Shown in pieces: positions 41,640-54,018 of a DNA stretch of 64,000 nucleotides. The first letter of the stretch is position 1. Each line of letters opens with the position of its first letter. A program made the position numbers and the translations under genes. The DNA lies in NCBI RefSeq assembly GCF_017875325.1, contig NZ_JAGGMN010000001.1:992001-1056000 (forward strand), given 5' to 3'. This DNA is from Methanofollis sp. W23 (lineage in GTDB: Archaea; Halobacteriota; Methanomicrobia; Methanomicrobiales; Methanofollaceae). A model generated the notes under the pieces. That model did no database searches, had not been told where the DNA came from, and saw only the letters and a list, made by a program, of their open reading frames with translations.

Positions 41640-42483
41640 GGTCGGCGAAGAGCATGACCTGGACTGATCTCCTCTGCGGCCTTATGGTTGGCGGCAAGGG
41701 CGTATGCCGTTGAGAGTTGTGCGACGGTATCCAGGAAATCTTGCTTGCCGTCTGGTTGTTTGAGGATATGGTTCATGCCGCCGTTGATCAGAGCGAGTCG
41801 GCCCATCGGGTCGCGCTCTTCCATCCCGACCAGTCGAAGCCGTGCATCAGGTCACAGCAGACCTGATACTTCTCCATCATCATGGCGACGGCTTCTTCGA
41901 GTTGGTGGACATCGAGGCCTTTGTGGTCTTTGCTGGTAAATTCGGCAAGGGCCTTCTTCATCCTGGGTGCGATACCGATATAATCGACCACAAGGCCGCC
42001 AGGTTTGTCTTTGAAGACGCGGTCGACCCGGGCGATGGCCTGCATCAGGCCGTGGCTCTGCATGGGCTTGTCGACGTACATGGTGGTGAGGCAGGGGGCG
42101 TTGAAGCCAGTGTTCCACATGTCACGGACGATGACGACCTTAAAGGGATCTTCGGGGTCTTTGAACCGTTTTCTCAGAACTTTGATCTGCTGTTTTGTCC
42201 TGATGTGTTTCTGCCATTCCAGTTTTTCCGACTTGGTGCCGGACATGACAACCTTGATCGCACCGGTTGTGTCGTCGTCGCTGTCCCATTCAGGGTGGAG
42301 GTGGATGAGGGCGTTGTACATCTCGACGCAGATCCGGCGGCTCATGCAGACGATCATCGCCTTGCCCTCGAGTGTCTCCTGTTGTTGTGCAAAGTGGCGG
42401 TCGATGTCGGCGGCGACGATCTCGATCCGGTGCGGGGTGCCGACGACGGCTTCGAGGGCGGCCCATTTGGATTTCTATTCGTG
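41640..42483 (-). pseudogene. hsdR: Type I restriction enzyme R subunit (HsdR), internal fragment
   Basis: The frame reads [20 protein letters not shown], then [31 protein letters not shown] and [20 protein letters not shown], which is the second helicase lobe of HsdR. It then shifts near 41820 into [20 protein letters not shown] and FLDTVAQLSTAYALA before homology fades. An in-frame TAG at 42475-42477 and the fusion to an insertion-sequence end at about 42484 cut off the 5' part (nuclease and first helicase lobe). No hsdM or hsdS is visible. Confidence 0.85.
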
Positions 42484-42633
42484 GAGGACAGGAAAGACCA
42501 GAAAGAGGTTCCTGAAGGCACGCAGATACTGGTATCAGGTCAAGGAGATCAAGATCAAACTGATCCTCTACAACCTCAAGATGGTAATGAAAAAATCTTT
42601 TCTTGCTGTTTGTTGAGGAATTCTACAGAGCCG
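42484..42633 (+). mobile_element. Insertion-sequence right end with transposase C-terminus
   Basis: The last ~43 codons of a transposase (TGKTRKRFLKARRYWYQVKE, then IKIKLILYNLKMVMKKSF) end at TGA 42614-42616, immediately followed by GGAATTCTACAGAGCC, the terminal repeat found on the miniature elements. This links those elements to a parental transposon, probably IS5-like judging from the C-terminal pattern and the GG-starting ends; the family is not certain. Confidence 0.7.
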
Positions 42634-42890
42634 AAATTGCCAAAATCAATAAAGTTTTAGCATATGCAGTTACCTCATAGCAATGTTTATATGCAGACAA
42701 ATTAGATCTTTATTGCATGAAGAGTTTATAATGCCATTATGTGGAAACATATAATAGTATTACATAAATAATTCATGCCCCTCCAGACGGAGGAAGTATT
42801 ATTGATATAGTTATACCTATATTTTTATTATAGGCATACGTATCAATACACTTATTTTTGCTATTATTATTATATGGGAGATTTGTTGCA
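42621..42890 (+). repeat. AT-rich leader, copy 1 (duplicate of 48758-49025)
   Basis: About 265 bp nearly identical to the region directly upstream of hflX, starting exactly at the terminal repeat TTCTACAGAGCCGAAATTGC. Shared landmarks: ATCAATAAAGTTTTAGCATA, AGATCTTTATTGCATGAAGA, TTCATGCCCCTCCAGACGG and CTATTATTATTATATGGGAG. The two copies differ by scattered substitutions only. It is far richer in A+T than the flanks. Confidence 0.9.
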
Positions 42891-42920
42891 GAATTCGTTC
42901 CAAATGATCAAATTCGGCAC
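42891..42920 (+). pseudogene. hflX: Scrap of the hflX 5' end
   Basis: GAATTCGTTCCAAATGATCA and the next bases AATTC match hflX codons 4-13 at 49080 onward (GAATTCGTATCAAATGATCA). The intervening start codon and ribosome site have been deleted. It shows that the DNA ahead of nop5 was once the beginning of a second hflX copy. Confidence 0.8.
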
Positions 42921-42988
42921 GTAATGAGACCATTCAAAAAGTAAAACCACTTGAGATCTCTGATAGATGATCTTACGAGGTGGCTGAT

Positions 42989-43705
42989 ATGCATAAGTTA
43001 GTACAGACTAACATAGATCAAACTAAGCAAGATATCAAAGTAGCACTAGCTAGAGATGAAATTATGAAAATCGCTATGCGTCTGCTCAGAGATTTGGATC
43101 ATAATGTTCCAAATTACTACAATCGACTTATAGAATTCTTTAAGTTATATTTTCCTGAAGCAGAGCATAAAATACAAAGCCCTAAACAGTTGCTCATGTT
43201 AGCACAGAAAGGCGCTCAGCGTGAAGTTCTGGCTAAGCGATTGAAAATCTCTAGCCAAAGTTTTGGGTTAGATTTGCGCATGAAGGACATTAAGTTTATT
43301 GAGCAATTTGCATCGATGCTATTAATCTCTGGAAAGATGAAGAAAAACGAGTTATTTGTAGTTGAAACAAAAAAATATATACAAGAATTGGTTGCTGAAC
43401 TGACTCCAAACATGGCTAAAATAGCTAGTTATCGAATTTGCGCAGAACTTGTTGAGCGAGCAGGAGGATTGCGTAATTTAGCTTTTTTGCCAGCGAGTAG
43501 AATACAATTGTTAGGCGCTGAGACAGCTTTATTCAGACATATAAGAACTGGTGCTAAACCCCCCAAATACGGTGTCCTTTTTCAGCATGCAACGGTTAAG
43601 TCTGTTGAGCCTCAAGAAAAAGGAAAAAATGCTAGGCGAATAGCTTGTAAGCTGGCTATTGCTGCTAGGAAAGACTACGCAAGGATTTACTACGCAAGGA
43701 TTTAA
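42989..43705 (+). CDS. Compact Nop5/Nop56-like protein lacking the N-terminal domain
   Basis: A 238-aa Nop-domain protein of the box C/D sRNP. It starts at the coiled-coil (DEIMKIAMRLLRDLDHNVPN, YNRLIEFFKLYFPEAEHKI) and continues through the Nop domain with RICAELVERAGGLRNLAFLP, LLGAETALFRHIRTGAKPPK and YGVLFQHATVKS, the L7Ae/k-turn RNA contact. The roughly 100-residue N-terminal domain that binds fibrillarin in ordinary archaeal Nop5 is missing, as is most of the basic tail. The ATG at 42989 follows GAGGTG at six bases; a GTG at 42980 is an alternative. The DNA is AT-rich compared with its surroundings. It is followed by fibrillarin, the normal partner gene. Confidence 0.85.
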   Translation: MHKLVQTNIDQTKQDIKVALARDEIMKIAMRLLRDLDHNVPNYYNRLIEFFKLYFPEAEHKIQSPKQLLMLAQKGAQREVLAKRLKISSQSFGLDLRMKDIKFIEQFASMLLISGKMKKNELFVVETKKYIQELVAELTPNMAKIASYRICAELVERAGGLRNLAFLPASRIQLLGAETALFRHIRTGAKPPKYGVLFQHATVKSVEPQEKGKNARRIACKLAIAARKDYARIYYARI

Positions 43706-43920
43706 AAAAACAAAGTAAAGAAGGTGCCCAATGATGAAATTAACGACATCGCCTGAGGGCACCCCAATATTCTTTACATTAAAAATAAGCTAGCTATTGC
43801 TGCTAGAAAAGACTACGCAAGACTTTAAAGTAAAAACAAAGAAAAGGGAGTATCTAATGATGAAATTAGACCAACATCGCCTGAGGACCCCCAATATTCT
43901 TTACATTAAAAACAAACTAG
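43651..43920 (+). repeat. Tandem duplication at the nop5-flpA junction
   Basis: Two units of about 135 bp, 43651-43789 and 43790-43920, each hold the 3' end of nop5 (GCTATTGCTGCTAG, GACTACGCAAG) and the 5' end of flpA (ATGATGAAATTA, CATCGCCTGAGG, CAATATTCTTTACATTAAAA). In the first unit the fibrillarin start at 43731 is frameshifted and soon stops; the second unit leads into the intact gene. A nested 15-bp repeat (ACTACGCAAGGATTT) extends the Nop5 C-terminus. Confidence 0.85.
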
Positions 43921-44525
43921 CTACACCTAATCTTATTCCAGGCAAGCAAGTTTATGGTGAAAAACTTGTCAAGAAGAACAACAAAGAGTATCGACTTTGG
44001 AATCCTTCACGTAGCAAGCTAGCTGCGGCCATCCTGAAAGGATTGAAGAATTTACCTCTAAAATCAGATAGCACCATGTTATATCTTGGTGGAGCATCTG
44101 GTACAACTATTAGCCACTTAAGTGATATATTAACAAAGGGCGTAATATTCACTGTAGAAATATCACCAGAACCGATAAGGGAACTCGTATTCCTATCAGA
44201 AGAGCGAAAGAATATTGCTCCAATATTGGCTGATGCTAATAGGCCCGATGTATATCAGAATAGAATACAAAAATGTGATTTCTTATATCAAGACGTAGCT
44301 CAAAGAAATCAAGTAGATATTCTAATCAAGAATGCTGAGTTTCTGAATGAAAATGGCTTAATGTACATCGCTGTAAAAGCGAGAAGCATCGATTCTACTA
44401 TGCCGGTAAATCAAATATTCATGGATGTTAAAAAACAACTAAGCGCTAAGTTTAAGATATTAGAAGAATTGAAATTAGAACCTTATGAAAAAGACCACTT
44501 ATTCCTAGTGCTTAAAACTAAGTGA
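43857..44525 (+). CDS. flpA: Fibrillarin-like rRNA/tRNA 2'-O-methyltransferase
   Basis: A 222-aa full-length archaeal fibrillarin. YRLWNPSRSKLAAAILKGL, MLYLGGASGTTISHLSDIL (SAM loop), VEISPEPIRELVFLSEERKN, PILADANRP, LYQDVAQRNQ and YIAVKARSID give the complete SAM pocket and the K-D-D-K catalytic set. It needs box C/D guide RNAs, L7Ae and Nop5 to act. The start at 43857 has GGGAG six bases upstream; upstream in-frame codons belong to the duplicated nop5 tail. Its AT-rich codon use matches the adjacent nop5 and hflX, not the host genes. A second, native copy is expected elsewhere in the genome. Confidence 0.92.
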   Translation: MMKLDQHRLRTPNILYIKNKLATPNLIPGKQVYGEKLVKKNNKEYRLWNPSRSKLAAAILKGLKNLPLKSDSTMLYLGGASGTTISHLSDILTKGVIFTVEISPEPIRELVFLSEERKNIAPILADANRPDVYQNRIQKCDFLYQDVAQRNQVDILIKNAEFLNENGLMYIAVKARSIDSTMPVNQIFMDVKKQLSAKFKILEELKLEPYEKDHLFLVLKTK

Positions 44526-45039
44526 GTACGACAGGATTCAAGCGACATGCGATAGAAGATACTTTCTCCAAATATACTTGGAGTTCCTGTACGACCGATA
44601 TTTCAGTTGCTATTTTTTTAGAGGAATTCTACAGAACCCTACAATCATACTCCAATCAGGGCGTTCAAATATCAATTTAGATCCGTCTGTTGTGCAATCC
44701 CGGGTAGAATATGTGGAACCATTTCTACAATCTTCTACAATCCGATCCCCAATCGTTCCCCGATCCCGTATGGAAGATATCAACTCATAGCCGCTTATTA
44801 TTCGATTCAAGGGGGAAAAATTTGAGATAATTGCCCCAATCTTCCCCAATTACTCATCCCGCATGAGAGATTGAGCCAGTTCCTCCTTAAGGTTCTCTCG
44901 CGTCTGAAGGTTTGTTCTGAGGAAAAAGCACTGTTCAGAGGACATGGCATGAAGTCACCGGTATTGGTGCGTCTGTCTTCTCTCGTGCCTCGTCCATCTC
45001 CCGACACTTTTTTCCGAACAGGAGGCGCATTGCGAATAT
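44526..45039. other. Gene-free stretch with hairpin and a transposon-type end
   Basis: CTCCAA (44566-44571) and TTGGAG (44578-44583) pair around ATATAC and may end the nop5-flpA transcript. GAGGAATTCTACAGAACC at 44621-44638 is another copy of the terminal repeat. No gene is supported between there and the EVE remnant. Confidence 0.45.
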
Positions 45040-46150: not shown

Positions 46151-47137
46151 CTATCTCCTCCCCGGCGACAGGTTCTCCAGCGCCAGGGACCGGGAGAGGT
46201 GCATCGTCCGGTCGAGAAGGTCGCCCCCGTCCATCTCGACCGCACAGAGATCTTCAGGATGCTCCTGGCAGAGATCCTCCCTGACGGCATCAAATTTCTC
46301 CTCCACTTCCTCGCAGTACGCCGCCAGTTCGTCTTCCTCCACCATACCGGCATGCACCGCACATGAGACGAAACACAGGGCGTCGCAACACTCAGCAGTC
46401 AGGGACGAGACCGCCGCCGGGTTCACCCTGAGGGCGGACCTGAAAGTGTCGTCCCATGCGAGGAATGTGTCATAAAAGACGGCGAGGGTCGGCAGGGGAT
46501 ATTGCACGACGAGATCGTCGAGGACTTCTTCCACCTTCACGACCCGCTCGTGGGCAAGAGGATAGATGGCCTCCGCAAGGTCCCGGGACAGGGGGGTCAT
46601 GCGGGTACAGAACTCCCGCTGGAAACCGTCGACAAAGAAACCGAAATTTTCAAGGAGCCGGATCTCGTCAGCATCCAGGCCGAAGTAGTCCGGCGGGATC
46701 TCGTCACCGTCTCTGAACTCTCTCCAGAGCCTGAGGTGGTGCGTAAGGGAACTGACCGTTGCTGCCTTTTTTGTTCTGAGTGCGGTCAGAACCATATGAA
46801 AGAGGGCGAGTTCGTAGCGGCTGAAGATCTCAGTCTTCACCGGCACCCTGACCTGAAAGAGGTAGTGGTCATAGGGGCCGGTGACCGGATTGTTTCTGCT
46901 CCCTCTGCTCTTTTTGACCGTGAAGAAATCGTTTGTCTCGCCGGTAAGCGCGTATGCCACTGAATCGACAGGACCGTTGGGCATTCTGAGGTAGATGCTG
47001 TCAAAGAGGGTAACGCCCCGCTGGTTATAGTGGATGAGGTCGACGAAAAAGATGAACTTCATCAGTTTTGTCCGGCCGATGGCGGGGTCCTGCTCCATCG
47101 CATAGAGCATTGCATGGATTTTCTTGATTTTTTTCAT
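46151..47137 (-). CDS. Panacea (SocA/DUF4065-like) domain protein, candidate antitoxin
   Basis: A 328-aa protein. The N-terminus IHAMLYAMEQDPAIGRTKLM, KFIFFVDLIHYNQRGVTLFD and YLRMPNGPVDSVAY is the Panacea pattern (helix, Thr-x-Leu-x-Lys, later GP), known as a universal neutralising domain of type II antitoxins. The C-terminal 150 residues are helical and acidic, without a known domain. It stands directly before a PIN-domain gene, which would be a new partner if confirmed. GC content is host-like. Confidence 0.75.
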   Translation of the reverse strand: MKKIKKIHAMLYAMEQDPAIGRTKLMKFIFFVDLIHYNQRGVTLFDSIYLRMPNGPVDSVAYALTGETNDFFTVKKSRGSRNNPVTGPYDHYLFQVRVPVKTEIFSRYELALFHMVLTALRTKKAATVSSLTHHLRLWREFRDGDEIPPDYFGLDADEIRLLENFGFFVDGFQREFCTRMTPLSRDLAEAIYPLAHERVVKVEEVLDDLVVQYPLPTLAVFYDTFLAWDDTFRSALRVNPAAVSSLTAECCDALCFVSCAVHAGMVEEDELAAYCEEVEEKFDAVREDLCQEHPEDLCAVEMDGGDLLDRTMHLSRSLALENLSPGRR

Positions 47138-47199: not shown

Positions 47200-48550
47200 C
47201 TCGTATGACGGATACAAAAAGATAACTCTTTCGGAAGGGTGTGCTCTGAACGGTCGCCGACGCCCGTGGATCATCCCCGTCGGGATTCACCCGCTCACCC
47301 CCCTTCCCCATGTTCCACTCCCGCACCAGCCGGGCATAACACGCCTCGCAGAGCACCACCCGTCCATCACCAGACCAGTGCACCGCCTTCCTCTCGGCAC
47401 ACACATCGCAGCGGCCCAGGTCGGTGCGCACCCGCGTGAACTCTCCGCAGTCCAGGACACCAGGGAGCGGGAGTACCTTGTTTGCACATGTGCACTGGAT
47501 TGCACTGGGTTGCACTCTGAAAGTGCCACCAAACGGGGGAACCTTATGGCCTTGTTTCTCGATCCGGGCGATATCGATTGGATCATGATCGTCATGTGCA
47601 CCAGAACGCTGATCGCACCCACCCTCACCCGGAGACCCCGACCGATCAGGGGTGGTGGGTGCATCCTCATTCTGGTGCAATCTAGTACTATGAGAGAGAG
47701 AGATCTCTCTCCTCTCTTTAGAATAGGTACTCCGGGGCCGTTCCTTCGTCCCCTTGCTTTGCACATCCTCAGTGCAAATACGGTGCAAACCAGGTGCAAA
47801 CGTGCCATCATCGTCGGGAGGTCGGGATCGGGGTCACGGTCACGGTCGAGCCAGACATGCGCACGTCCGCTCCACCGACGATATACTGACCGGTCGAAGG
47901 AATAATGGTGCTCCCGCCGGCGGACTATGGAGCCGTCGACCTCCTCGGAGATCGTGGTGTCCACGAACCCGACCGCTGGGCACTTCTCCAGCAGCCCGGT
48001 GTAGGAAGAGCCGCCGTTGTTATACCCGTTGAGGATCCTGCGGGTCTGGCGGTACGAAAGCCCGAGCGCCTCCTGCAACATGCGGACGGTGAAGACGTCC
48101 CAGCCCATCGCGGCGACGGTCTCCAGGGCGGCGGCCTCATTTTTTGTCAGCTTCGTCTCCTGCCCGCCTGAGTCGCCGTTGATCGCGGCGTAGATCCGGG
48201 CCGCCGTCGTAGTGCTCGCGCTGGAACCGGTGCAGCAGCGCCGAGGCCTTGATGAGGTCGAAGAGCATGCCGGGGTTGCGGCGGTTGGCCGGCACCGAGA
48301 ACTGCACCTGTTCGGCGTACGGGATGGAGATATGGAGACGCTCTTCTTTGAGCACCTCCCACATCGCCCGGCAGACCGACAACGCCGGATCTTCGGCGTC
48401 GGCCTCCGCCTCCTTCATATGCGCAAGCACCCGTTCGTCCTGTTCGAGCGAGTCGTCGATCCAGACCGTGAGCATCCGGTTCATCACCTGGTCGTCGCCC
48501 GGGTCTTCGACCCTCGCCAGCCACCAGACACAGCGCTCCCGGCGCAAGGG
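47200..48550 (-). pseudogene. Decayed C-terminal copy of the primase-helicase gene
   Basis: The frames correspond in order to the intact gene at 51205-54018: ERCVWWLARVEDPGDDQVMN, NRRNPGMLFDLIKASALLHR, a shift, FTVRMLQEALGLSYRQTRRI, CPAVGFVDTTI, and after another shift GRCDVCAERKAVHW and VVLCEACYARLVREWNMGKG. Only the part after about residue 540 remains. It is a duplicated, broken relic of the same kind of mobile element. Confidence 0.88.
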
Positions 48551-48757
48551 TGCGGGAAGGTACGTCGATCAGAACGGCCGCCCGGATCGTAGAATCTTTC
48601 CCGTCATCTCGCGCCGGGGGAAACCCCCCACGGACCGAAGATAGCCGGGGGGCGGCGAAGTGAACATGATCCCCGCCGATTCTCCTCTCTTGATAAAGAG
48701 CGATCAAGCAACGAGAAATTTTCATCCCGTATGCTTGAACCCTACGTTCATGCCCGA

Positions 48758-49025
48758 TTCTACAGAGCCGAAATTGCCAAAATCAATAAAGTTTTAGCAT
48801 ATGCAGTTACCTCATAGCAATATTTATATACAGATAAATTAGATCTTTATTGCATGAAGAGTTTATAATGCCATTATATGGAAACATATAATAGTATTAC
48901 ATAAATAATTCATGCCCCTCCAGACGGGGGGAGTATTATTGATATAGTTATATCTGTATTTTTATTATGGGTATGCGTATCAATACACTTATTTTTGCTA
49001 TTATTATTATATGGGAGATTTTTTG
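48758..49025 (+). repeat. AT-rich leader, copy 2, upstream of intact hflX
   Basis: Partner of 42621-42890; starts at TTCTACAGAGCC and runs to TATATGGGAGATTTT. Several TATA-like boxes (TTTATAATGCC, TTATATACAG) lie in it, so it probably supplies the hflX promoter and a long leader. No transposase is attached to this copy. Confidence 0.9.
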
Positions 49026-49070
49026 CATCGTCAAATGGAAAATGTTTAACATTACAAATTGAGGAATTAA

Positions 49071-50366
49071 ATGACATTCGAAACGGAATTCGTATCAAAT
49101 GATCAAATTCAGGGCTGTACAACGAGAAGAATTATTGTTGTCCAGCGAAATGATCCGAATTCTGATGCTGCTACAAATTCGCGGAAGCTCTTAGAACTCA
49201 AGGAGTTAGCACGTGCTGTAAATTATGTGGTTGTTGGCACATTTGTGCAATCAAGACATCCTGACAGGAAGTACCAGATAGGTTGCGGTAAGGTGGATGA
49301 GCTTGCGGAGTTTGTGGAATCTCTGGATGCTGAAAAAGTTATTTTTAACAACCCGCTTTCAATGACGCAGATCTATAACGTCTCTGAAGCGTGCAAATGT
49401 GGAGTAATAGACCGGTTCCAGCTGATCCTTGAGATATTTGCTGCAAGAGCCACGACAAGACGTGCAAAACTGCAGGTAGAACTTGCGGAATTACAATATG
49501 AACTTCCGAAAGCAAAGTCTATCGTTTCCCTGCAGAAGAAGAAGGAACGGCAGGGGTTTATGGGCCTTGGAAGTTATGAAGATTCGTACGAGCAGGATAT
49601 TAAGAAAAGGATCGCACGGATCAGGGCCGAACTTCAGCAAGGAGTCGGGAGCGAAGAACAACGCACTTTCCGGCATGAAAAAGGATTTTCCCTTGTAACT
49701 CTGGCAGGGTATACAAATGCGGGAAAAAGTACTCTTTTCCAGTCACTCATAGAGGAAGAGACAGTCGTCAGGGACATGCTCTTTACGACACTCTCTCCTA
49801 CAACACGTTCTCTCACGGTAAATCGTAGAAAAATGCTTCTGACAGATACTGTGGGATTTATCTCAGACCTCCCACACTGGATGGTGGATGCTTTCCGGTC
49901 AACGCTTGATGAGATATTCATGGCTGATATCATTCTTCTTGTGGTGGATATGAGTGATCCGGTGGATATTATTCAAGAAAAACTGGCTGTCAGCCATGAT
50001 ATCTTCTTGGGGAGAACAGAGGGTGCTGTAATTGTTACTGCTCTTAACAAGGCTGATCTTATTCCTGAAGAAGAGCTGCAGGAAAAACTGGAAGTGATCC
50101 GTGATCTTTCTCCTGCTCCTGTCATGATATCTGCCAAATCAGGAGAAGGTCTTACTGAACTGAAACAACTTCTCTTTGAGAAACTTCCTACATGGGAACA
50201 TTGCAGGATATCCATCCCGACATCCGAAGAGGGTATGTCCATGGTATCGTGGCTTCATGATGAAGGCATTGTGCACACAGTCGAGTATGGGGATTCCATT
50301 CTTATGGAAATAGAAGCAAGGGATGAGATAATTCAAAAAGTACAGCCTTTTATCATGTCTTCTTAA
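49071..50366 (+). CDS. hflX: GTPase HflX (ribosome-associated)
   Basis: A 431-aa GTPase. The N-terminal ND domain (VVVGTFVQSRHPDRKYQIGC, GKVDELAEFV, NPLSMTQIYNVSEAC) and coiled-coil (TTRRAKLQVELAELQYELPK) precede the G domain: G1 GYTNAGKST, G2 TTLSPTTRS, G3 DTVGFISDLPH, G4 NKADL, G5 SAKSGEG. HflX binds the 50S subunit and splits stalled ribosomes under stress. The start has GAGG six bases upstream. The gene is AT-rich and sits between mobile-element relics, so it was probably acquired from a lower-GC methanogen. Confidence 0.93.
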   Translation: MTFETEFVSNDQIQGCTTRRIIVVQRNDPNSDAATNSRKLLELKELARAVNYVVVGTFVQSRHPDRKYQIGCGKVDELAEFVESLDAEKVIFNNPLSMTQIYNVSEACKCGVIDRFQLILEIFAARATTRRAKLQVELAELQYELPKAKSIVSLQKKKERQGFMGLGSYEDSYEQDIKKRIARIRAELQQGVGSEEQRTFRHEKGFSLVTLAGYTNAGKSTLFQSLIEEETVVRDMLFTTLSPTTRSLTVNRRKMLLTDTVGFISDLPHWMVDAFRSTLDEIFMADIILLVVDMSDPVDIIQEKLAVSHDIFLGRTEGAVIVTALNKADLIPEEELQEKLEVIRDLSPAPVMISAKSGEGLTELKQLLFEKLPTWEHCRISIPTSEEGMSMVSWLHDEGIVHTVEYGDSILMEIEARDEIIQKVQPFIMSS

Positions 50367-51204: not shown

Positions 51205-54018
51205 TCATGAGATCCCCTTCCCCATATTCCACGCCCGCACCAGCCCGGCATAACACCGCTCGCAGAGCACCACCTGCCCGTCGGCCGAGCGATGCACCGC
51301 CCGCCCCTCGTCGCACACATCGCACCGGCCGAGATCGGTGCTCACCCGCGTGAACTCCCCGAGGTCCAGGACGCCCGGCAATGTCTCTTGCAACATCCCG
51401 TCTCTATTTCCATCGGTTTTCAGCAGGTTGCGGATGATGACGTCACTCAACGGGCGGCGTGGGGTGCGCTGATCACGATTCGCACCCCGGCACGGTGATA
51501 CCACCAGATCGTTTCCACCATTCCGGGTTTCACACACACACCCACCCACAGACCCATGAGAACCCGGGCCACCGGGTGCGTGTGCGTACTGCTGTACTTT
51601 AGTACTAAGAGAGAGACGCGTCTCTCTATCTGTACTAGTACTGTCAGATCCAGAACCGTTCCTGGCCGCTTGGTCTTCGCAGACGTCGCTGCAATCCTGC
51701 GGGAAACCTGCTGGAATACCGCAAGCGTCGGCGGGGCCGGGACCATCGTCCCGATCCTGGTCCTCGCCGTCGTCTCTGCGGTCGTCGATCCATACCCCAG
51801 CCCCGCGGGACCACTGCCGGTAGACCCTCAGGTCGAAGGAGAAGAGGTGTTCTCGCCGGCGGACGGCATACCCCTCCGCGTCCTCCGTGACCGTCGTGTC
51901 GAAGTAACTGACCGCCGGACATTTCTCCAGCAGTCCGGAGTAGGTCGTCCCCCGGCTCACATAGCCGTGGAGGATGCGGTAGGTCTGGTGGTAGGAAAGC
52001 CCGAGCGCCTCCTGGAGCATCTTGATCGTGAACTGGTCCCAGTTCATCGCCGCCACCGTTTCCAGCGCCGCCGCCTCGTTCTTCGTCACCTTCGTCTCCT
52101 GGCCGCCTGAGTCGCCGTTGATGGCGGCATAGATCCGGGCCGCCGTCTCGAAGTCCTCACGGTTTGCCCGGATCCCGCCCTCATAGCGCTCGCGCTGGAA
52201 CCGGTGCAGGAGTGCGGAGGCCTTGATGAGGTCGAAGAGCATCCCTGGGTTCCTGCGGTTGGCCGTCACCGAGAACTGCACGGCCTCGGCGTACGGGATG
52301 GAGACATGAAGACGCTCCTCCTTCACCACCTCCCAGATCGCCCGGCAGACCGGGAGCCCCGGATCCTCGGCGTCGCCCTCCGCCGCCTCGCGGACCTCGG
52401 CATGTTTCATGTGTTCGAGCACCCGCTCGTCCTGTTCGAGCGAGTCGTCGATCCAGACGGTGAGCATGCGGTTCATCACCTGGTCGTCGCCCGGGTCCTC
52501 GACCCGTGCAAGCCACCAGACGCAGCGCTCAGGGATGCGGCAGACCTGGATCTTGCGGTCTGGGGAGACGGTGTGGTGCTCGATCCGCTCCCTGAAGTTT
52601 GCGGTGGCGGCTTTGAGGACTTCCTGGAGGTCGTCGGAGAGCGAGACGTCGTCGAAGAGGAAGACGGTCCCCGGATGAAGGTTGTCGTGGTAGTAGAGTG
52701 CCTTGTTGCTCACCGTCCCGGCGAGGCGGTAGGCCTCAGGCACCTGCTTGAGCATGGTGGTGCAGGCATGGCTCTTGCCTTTGCCTGAGTTCCCTGAGAC
52801 CGAGACGTGCAGCCCGCTCGTGTTCTCGACCGACTGCGAGGCGAGCGACATCACCAGGCACTCGGCGACGATGCGGTCGCCGACGTGCTCGCGGCCGAAG
52901 GTGTCGAGGAGGAAGCCGAGCGGGTCGCCCTCGGTGAGGACCGCCATCGCCTCTTCCCTGAGCGCCGGGTCGGGGTCTGGTGCCGGTGGGACGGGCGGGG
53001 GTGGGGGCACCTCCTCCCGTTTTTTCAGGGTGTGTTTCTCCCTGGGTTCGTAGCGGTCCCGCAACTCAGACCACCGCTGCACTCCGCCGCCGCACGAGGC
53101 GTGGTGGCACCCGGCATGGACTGCGCCGCTCGGGAACTGGACCGCAAAGGCCCCGTCATGGTGGGCGCTACTGAACGGGCAGTCTTCGAGGACGTAGAGC
53201 GTCCCGCCCTGCCAGGGCCTCGTGCTCCGCACGCCAAGCCCGTGCTCACGGAGCCATGCCCCAAGGTCGAGGGGCTTCCCCCGCTTCGGTGCGGGCGGCG
53301 GGGCGGTCGGGAGGCGGCCGGCGATCTTTTCGAGGAGGTCGGTGGGAACCACTTCAGGGTGCTCGGGCACGGCGAGGACCTTCGCCCGCCGGTGCGGACG
53401 GTTGTCGGTGTGGTCGCCTTTGCGCGAGGTGGTGCCGTAGAGTTTCCAGATCCTGGCGGCATTGTAGTTTGCCGTGTCGACGGTGACGACATCATCCGAA
53501 AACAGGGCGTCGAGGGTGACGAGCACGGCCTTCACGAGCGCCGTCGCCGCCTCGTCGTTGGCGAGGTCGATGGGGTACAAAAGGTGTGCCCCGTTGCCTG
53601 AGTCGGCCTTGATCGGATCGGGAAACCCCTGCCCCGCGAGCCAGCGAGCGATCGCCTCGGCACGCTCCAGCGCCGCCTCGTGCTCATCCTCGGTCGACGA
53701 GACCCCGCTCGGGCGCACCGGGTCGAGGTCGACTGGAAGCCAGCGGCGGCGGAGGATGTCGGCGTCGGCGGTGGTGGGGTCGCTTCTGGTGAGTCGCATC
53801 TTCACGCGGTTTGCCCGCCTCGCGAGGAGGGCCGGGTCGACGAGGTTGAGGGTGACGTACGTCCCCCTCGTCTCGGGATCGGCGTCGAGCGCCGCGGCGG
53901 CGTTCGCCAACTTCGCAAAGTCGTCGAAGTAGCCTGAGTGCGTGAACCGGTCGGCAAGGGTGCGGAGTTCCACGACGCCGCCCTCAGGGAAGAGGGCGGC
54001 GAGGGCGGTGTCGATCAT
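51205..54018 (-). CDS. Archaeo-eukaryotic primase (PrimPol-type) with helicase/ATPase domain
   Basis: A 937-aa replication protein of a plasmid- or virus-like element. Residues 1-270 form the primase: LPVDLDPVRPSG (catalytic Asp pair), ADSGNGAHLLYPID and WKLYGTTSRKGDHTDNRPHR. A Cys/His segment (CPFSSAHHDGAF, HAGCHHASCGGG) follows near residues 275-315. The ATPase domain has P-loop SGNSGKGKS (about 408-416) and Walker B TVFLFDDVSL. A winged-helix segment (FTIKMLQEALGLSYHQTYRI) and a C-terminal zinc ribbon (RCDVCDEGRAVH, VLCERCY) complete it. The start at 54018 overlaps the previous stop by 4 bp and has GGAGGGG upstream. It is host-like in GC. Confidence 0.88.
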   Translation of the reverse strand: MIDTALAALFPEGGVVELRTLADRFTHSGYFDDFAKLANAAAALDADPETRGTYVTLNLVDPALLARRANRVKMRLTRSDPTTADADILRRRWLPVDLDPVRPSGVSSTEDEHEAALERAEAIARWLAGQGFPDPIKADSGNGAHLLYPIDLANDEAATALVKAVLVTLDALFSDDVVTVDTANYNAARIWKLYGTTSRKGDHTDNRPHRRAKVLAVPEHPEVVPTDLLEKIAGRLPTAPPPAPKRGKPLDLGAWLREHGLGVRSTRPWQGGTLYVLEDCPFSSAHHDGAFAVQFPSGAVHAGCHHASCGGGVQRWSELRDRYEPREKHTLKKREEVPPPPPVPPAPDPDPALREEAMAVLTEGDPLGFLLDTFGREHVGDRIVAECLVMSLASQSVENTSGLHVSVSGNSGKGKSHACTTMLKQVPEAYRLAGTVSNKALYYHDNLHPGTVFLFDDVSLSDDLQEVLKAATANFRERIEHHTVSPDRKIQVCRIPERCVWWLARVEDPGDDQVMNRMLTVWIDDSLEQDERVLEHMKHAEVREAAEGDAEDPGLPVCRAIWEVVKEERLHVSIPYAEAVQFSVTANRRNPGMLFDLIKASALLHRFQRERYEGGIRANREDFETAARIYAAINGDSGGQETKVTKNEAAALETVAAMNWDQFTIKMLQEALGLSYHQTYRILHGYVSRGTTYSGLLEKCPAVSYFDTTVTEDAEGYAVRRREHLFSFDLRVYRQWSRGAGVWIDDRRDDGEDQDRDDGPGPADACGIPAGFPQDCSDVCEDQAARNGSGSDSTSTDRETRLSLSTKVQQYAHAPGGPGSHGSVGGCVCETRNGGNDLVVSPCRGANRDQRTPRRPLSDVIIRNLLKTDGNRDGMLQETLPGVLDLGEFTRVSTDLGRCDVCDEGRAVHRSADGQVVLCERCYAGLVRAWNMGKGIS

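Follow-up and report, generated by a model that had tools for sequence, protein, structure and literature searches.

Methanofollis sp. W23 carries, besides its native genes, a second nop5–fibrillarin pair in which Nop5 has no N-terminal, fibrillarin-binding domain (NTD). Sequence comparisons make it probable that the pair came to this methanogen from a different archaeon, most likely a DPANN-type one, in which the NTD of Nop5 had already been lost, and that the acquired proteins possibly work with the host L7Ae. The pair lies in the 64,000-nt window (the whole stretch of DNA that was analysed), which is part of a 2.87-Mb contig. Over positions 42500–44750 the GC content is 0.34–0.38, against 0.55–0.64 on either flank, and the window holds only two such AT-rich islands. 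Both genes have 36–38% GC with a GC3 of 0.32 in a window of 57% GC. The initial annotation, which had described a short Nop5 without NTD beside a complete fibrillarin in AT-rich DNA, was thus confirmed by Pfam matches, by the start of the PRK14552 alignment, and by GC content. The features of the locus are collected in Table 1.

Table 1. Features of the second nop5–fibrillarin locus and its surroundings, in window coordinates
Feature	Position	Strand	Evidence
Left copy of dispersed repeat, core TTCTACAGAGCC; border of AT-rich DNA	42609..42632	+	Motif counts in genome and window
AT-rich leader, 96% identical to 48757-49027; TATA-like box TTTATATG read by eye	42620..42890	+	271-bp direct repeat
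hflX remnant, about 25 nt of the start joined to about 45 nt of the end, middle deleted	42891..42961	+	Short alignments, 71-92% identity
Shine-Dalgarno-like GAGGTG for short nop5	42977..42982	+	Sequence
Short nop5 (238 aa): coiled coil and Nop C-terminal domain, without the N-terminal domain that binds fibrillarin	42989..43705	+	Profile matches, alignment, model
First copy of tandem duplication of about 138 bp (nop5 end and fibrillarin start); fibrillarin start broken	43648..43785	+	Sequence comparison, 15% divergence
15-bp tandem duplication at nop5 3′ end, adding a few residues to the protein	43674..43704	+	Sequence comparison
Putative box C/D kink-turn motif GGTGCCC-A-ATGATGA-N15-CTGA-GGGCACC	43723..43763	+	Outer stem 43715-43722 with 43770-43777
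Second copy of tandem duplication, working fibrillarin start	43786..43923	+	Sequence comparison
Complete fibrillarin (222 aa), S-adenosylmethionine (SAM) motif and K-D-K-H catalytic residues	43857..44525	+	Profile and alignment
Right copy of dispersed repeat; border of AT-rich cassette	44615..44638	+	Motif matches; other genus members have related DNA from 44639 onwards
Second AT-rich leader copy, before intact hflX	48757..49027	+	271-bp direct repeat
Intact hflX GTPase; other genomes of the order encode 81-85% identical proteins	49071..50366	+	Protein comparison

The short Nop5 matched the Pfam family Nop (PF01798) at 128 bits (cut-off 25.4), and its alignment to PRK14552/aNOP56 began only at profile position 117 of 417, scoring 162 bits against a cut-off of 452. 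The NTD of full-length archaeal Nop5/aNOP56 is missing: the protein begins at the coiled coil, and the DNA upstream is the hflX remnant. The start looks genuine rather than truncated, because GAGGTG stands 6 nt 5′ of the ATG; an alternative GTG start three codons upstream is possible. The coiled-coil dimerisation domain is present, with helices at 2–54 and 98–138 in the predicted model, and the Nop C-terminal domain carries the conserved motifs GAExALFRH and GAKPPKYG. In the alignment, all 16 positions that are invariant across 35 Nop5 proteins are kept. Folded as a single chain, the protein was predicted to form long coiled-coil helices and an RNA/L7Ae-binding domain (mean pLDDT 89.8, pTM 0.77). 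The structural matches to this model were box C/D Nop5 proteins, including 3nvi, an N-terminally truncated Nop56/58 in complex with L7Ae and C/D RNA, and such a truncated shape is therefore able to bind the RNA platform. Judged from the model, the short Nop5 should be capable of all known Nop5 roles except fibrillarin recruitment.

The adjacent open reading frame spans 43797–44525, and its most likely real start is the ATGATG at 43857. The encoded fibrillarin scored 260 bits against PF01269 (cut-off 27) and 278.6 bits against NF003276 (cut-off 113). It has the methyltransferase fold and the SAM motif, and alignment showed that it keeps the invariant residues K54, D146, K174, and H214, which form the catalytic tetrad. 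Shine-Dalgarno-like sites precede both nop5 and fibrillarin.

A search of the rest of the genome recovered a native pair at C1:2229987-2231008, 1.2 Mb from the extra one, consisting of a 201-aa fibrillarin and a 281-aa Nop5 that has an N-terminal region. In a set of 61 genomes from the genus and the order, every genome with a match had one Nop5 copy except W23, which had two. The extra pair had no DNA or close protein match in the 12 genomes of the genus, and none was found in 393 sampled genomes of the phylum, so that the locus is neither the sole copy in its genome nor one with close orthologues in the same place. Together with the AT-rich composition and with trees in which neither protein falls within the order's native sequences, these results bear out the proposal that the machinery was acquired.

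When we scanned public genomes with the short Nop5, the search led to loci of Woesearchaeota and other DPANN archaea, where several Nop5 proteins, roughly 244 aa long, likewise have the coiled coil at their N-terminus. A Nop5 match was present in 221 of 371 Nanobdellota genomes. Among about 150 matches listed, at least 33 genomes, mostly of Woesearchaeota-type DPANN archaea, had an equally short Nop5, defined as a stop-to-stop frame of at most 271 aa that still covers the coiled coil and is therefore too short for an NTD. Fibrillarin was found in all nine DPANN genomes checked, and in one NTD-less genome nop5, a membrane protein gene, and fibrillarin are clustered. A DPANN NTD profile, which recovered six of six NTD-bearing controls, found no convincing stand-alone NTD in 21 NTD-less genomes (best E 0.018); this profile misses the native methanogen N-terminal region, and very divergent NTDs could thus escape it. 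The count of 0/21 genomes with a detectable separate NTD argues against a split gene with the NTD encoded elsewhere and against frameshift errors. On a tree built from the shared part only, parsimony required six changes of NTD state when 37 rows were scored, 11 of them NTD-less. Neither decay nor transfer is likely to explain the missing NTD, since at least 33 Nanobdellota genomes have an equally short form, the 21 tested have no detectable stand-alone NTD, and fibrillarin is kept wherever it was looked for. As the likely cause, truncation by insertion at the present site was likewise discarded: the short start has a Shine-Dalgarno-like site immediately ahead of it, and many DPANN genomes encode a Nop5 of comparable shortness. 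The W23 protein and genome follow the Nanobdellota pattern of a coiled coil and Nop domain, no NTD, and a fibrillarin in the genome. The suggestion of a minimal or altered methylation machine consequently held, if in an unexpected way, since the NTD-less form proved frequent in Nanobdellota. Our literature search found no description of an NTD-less Nop5; most subscription journals lay outside that search, which makes this weak evidence of novelty.

The surroundings of the pair speak for a rival reading, in which it arrived by chance with AT-rich debris, is unused, and will be lost. The site is an insertion-prone patch that resembles a junkyard, with the hflX deletion remnant, a type I restriction subunit fragment (41788-42480, to the left of the leader), tandem duplications, and dispersed repeats; in addition, the pair occurs in a single genome and the Nop5 branch is very long. 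Against decay stand the 16 of 16 invariant Nop5 positions, the intact catalytic positions of fibrillarin, and the Shine-Dalgarno-like sites before both genes. The tandem duplication points the same way. Its two copies differ at 15% of aligned positions and both frames are open; had each copy changed neutrally by 7.7%, the chance of a given frame remaining open would be only 0.05–0.07, a figure that assumes duplication after arrival, and if the duplication took place in the donor the argument falls. With frames and all invariant residues intact, we do not favour the decaying copy that had been considered at the outset, and regard it as somewhat unlikely.

The "transposon ends" that had been reported around the pair were not borne out: neither a transposase nor terminal inverted repeats were found around the cassette, and copies of a dispersed repeat flank it instead. 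This 12–25 nt motif, TTCTACAGARCC, occurs at 42618 and 44624, with at least 41 matches across the genome (out of 200 candidates at first look) and 15 in the window against 1.9 expected. Its core TTCTACAGAGCC(GAAATT), joined to several different upstream halves, is present at 42618, 44624, and 48755 and at many places in the genome (our loci L019-L036), and it marks the borders of the AT-rich islands. Searches with single proteins and profiles gave no match to the pair in viral contigs, and no phage match was found for Nop5. A phage fibrillarin match (psiM100) proved to be a host gene flanking an attachment site: in Methanothermobacter the attachment site of prophage psiM100 adjoins the host fibrillarin gene (NC_002628.3, 30295-31001; locus L143). 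The plasmid match was a nop5–fibrillarin pair on a 987-kb haloarchaeal replicon (megaplasmid). Apart from these two cases, no further copy appeared in the viral, phage, and plasmid collections. The pair was accordingly rejected as a transposon or virus cassette, and the idea of a transferable cassette found no support.

Several other features of this region were recorded. Two genomic copies of hflX exist (49071-50366 in the window and C1:2531743-2533038) in addition to the deletion remnant at 42891-42961. That hflX is present in some relatives but not in others suggests frequent gain and loss of the gene in the order. The leader before hflX is not common to its relatives there. We rejected hflX as part of a DPANN cluster, its relatives being methanogens of the same order. 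A 165-nt repeat (83% identical) at 47300-47464 and 51214-51378 forms the ends of two related large open reading frames on the minus strand, one of which is shorter and apparently degraded; neither had a Pfam match. Other members of the genus carry 70–89% identical copies of repeat-like stretches at 44639-44905 (CCAATCTTCCCCAATC...), and a protein with a SocA/Panacea antitoxin-like domain is encoded at 46151-47137 (minus strand) in the same insertion-rich region.

Within the first spacer copy of the tandem duplication lies a box C/D kink-turn motif that is perfect in sequence, with its stem in register; it is the sole such site in the window, and 2000 shuffled versions of the cassette yielded no instance of it. 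The stretch is predicted to fold at −21.9 kcal/mol (z −3.2), and Rfam gave two sub-threshold matches at the spacer, both to C/D snoRNAs. L7Ae is known to bind a kink-turn in the nop5–fibrillarin mRNA of Sulfolobus acidocaldarius (PMC5539422), and L7Ae-type sites have been reported in the nop5–fibrillarin transcript of Thermococcus kodakarensis (PMC4247193). The W23 element may be controlled by L7Ae and tune the translation of fibrillarin. Most differences between the two spacer copies fall within one hairpin arm, which is also the pattern left by template-switch mutation, and the motif is possibly a by-product of such an event. In related loci it is not conserved, with weak long-loop matches only. 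A standard box C/D guide sRNA, for which C, D′, C′, and D boxes and two guides are expected, was rejected, as the spacer has one C/D pair with a 15-nt loop and the Rfam C/D families score below gathering.

In known archaeal sRNPs, L7Ae binds the kink-turn, and Nop5 attaches to this platform by its C-terminal domain, dimerises through its coiled coil, and brings in fibrillarin with its NTD (PMC3608112); by NMR, fibrillarin contacts the Nop5 NTD exclusively (PMC7089733). If the acquired pair functions, its proteins would use the host L7Ae and host C/D sRNAs, with the C-terminal domain of the short Nop5 bound to the L7Ae–kink-turn platform and its coiled coil forming dimers, possibly also with native Nop5. 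Fibrillarin would then be recruited by a contact outside the NTD or via a partner subunit; we infer such a contact because fibrillarin is retained in lineages where a short Nop5 is the only one detected. A bolder version, in which C/D methylation in many DPANN archaea, and by transfer in W23, runs without the Nop5 NTD through a second mode of fibrillarin docking, with W23 possessing a functional second machine and its own L7Ae switch, is doubtful.

The short Nop5 could instead compete with the native machine or regulate it. Native Nop5 and fibrillarin are encoded in the same cell, and a protein that has an intact coiled coil and RNA/L7Ae-binding domain and no NTD might form mixed dimers or occupy L7Ae–sRNA sites without fibrillarin at the known position, altering rRNA methylation. 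Against this, the short Nop5 comes with a complete fibrillarin of its own whose catalytic residues are intact, an arrangement like that of DPANN genomes in which no Nop5 other than an NTD-less one was found, and mixed dimers are unsure because the coiled coil of the short Nop5 differs from the native one. We consider such a role unlikely.

Regarding the origin of the pair, the best fibrillarin relative found came from a DPANN genome in the phylum to which UBA543 belongs (254 bits, compared with 225 for Pyrococcus horikoshii). Phylogenetic trees placed the extra fibrillarin among DPANN sequences (support 89/92) and grouped the short Nop5 with Nanobdellota sequences (88/94) on a very long branch of 1.9–2.0, next to sequences whose N-terminus is reduced or of another kind and outside the main NTD-less clade. 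The sampling was without Micrarchaeota, Iainarchaeota, Altiarchaeota, Thermoplasmatota, and Asgard archaea. No relative above 41% (Nop5) or 54% (fibrillarin) identity was found, including in a second DPANN survey. Approximately unbiased (AU) tests did not reject a deep sister position to the native Methanomicrobiales clade for either fibrillarin (p 0.157) or Nop5 (p 0.238). The phylogenies thus lean towards DPANN archaea, with long branches and a deep methanogen position still allowed. A DPANN source is favoured but not proven, since the AU tests do not reject the alternative and the second survey yielded nothing closer. The same tests are what can be said for an old divergent paralogue of the host lineage, retained without any transfer. 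This we regard as very improbable, given the foreign base composition and the absence of the pair from the order's other sampled genomes. Moreover, the short Nop5 has a full-length Nop coiled coil whereas the alignment of native Nop5 to the Nop profile begins only at position 88 of 228, and the extra fibrillarin is 39% identical to the native protein as opposed to 54% to its DPANN relative. Mobile DNA is known to encode Nop-domain proteins that stand alone (TasA; PMC12045711), but membership in a TIGR-Tas-like or IS110-like RNA-guided DNA system is hardly credible here, as we looked for a tandem interspaced guide array adjacent to the short nop5 and found none, the profile and fold matches are to aNOP56 and box C/D proteins, and the neighbour is fibrillarin.

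Under the preferred reading of an acquired DPANN-type pair, the textbook view of fibrillarin recruitment may fail in DPANN archaea with a short Nop5. The repeated natural loss of the NTD with fibrillarin kept offers a ready-made test of the NTD-docking model, and the presence of both Nop5 forms in one methanogen cell makes a direct comparison possible. The pair may also record contact between methanogens and DPANN symbionts, if its donor was one of the latter.

The W23 locus can be compared with four known systems. Like TasA of TIGR-Tas (PMC12045711), its Nop5 has a Nop domain and no N-terminal effector domain; unlike TasA, it is paired with fibrillarin, has no guide array, and is of box C/D type in sequence. 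As in the L7Ae-controlled transcripts of S. acidocaldarius and T. kodakarensis, a kink-turn lies within the nop5–fibrillarin transcript; it is at the 5′ end in those species, whereas the putative W23 element is in the intergenic spacer within a tandem duplication. With full-length archaeal Nop5/aNOP56, the short protein shares the coiled coil, a Nop domain with all invariant residues, and an adjacent complete fibrillarin with its catalytic residues, and it differs in having no fibrillarin-binding NTD, in being a second copy beside a native pair, and in its foreign composition. The short Nop5 also resembles the NTD-less Nop5 proteins of Woesearchaeota and other Nanobdellota (for example at our loci L043, L046, and L047), which likewise start at the coiled coil, measure about 240–260 aa, and have fibrillarin nearby or elsewhere in the genome; the W23 protein is only 33–41% identical to these, and it is a second Nop5 in its genome, whereas theirs is the sole Nop5 found.
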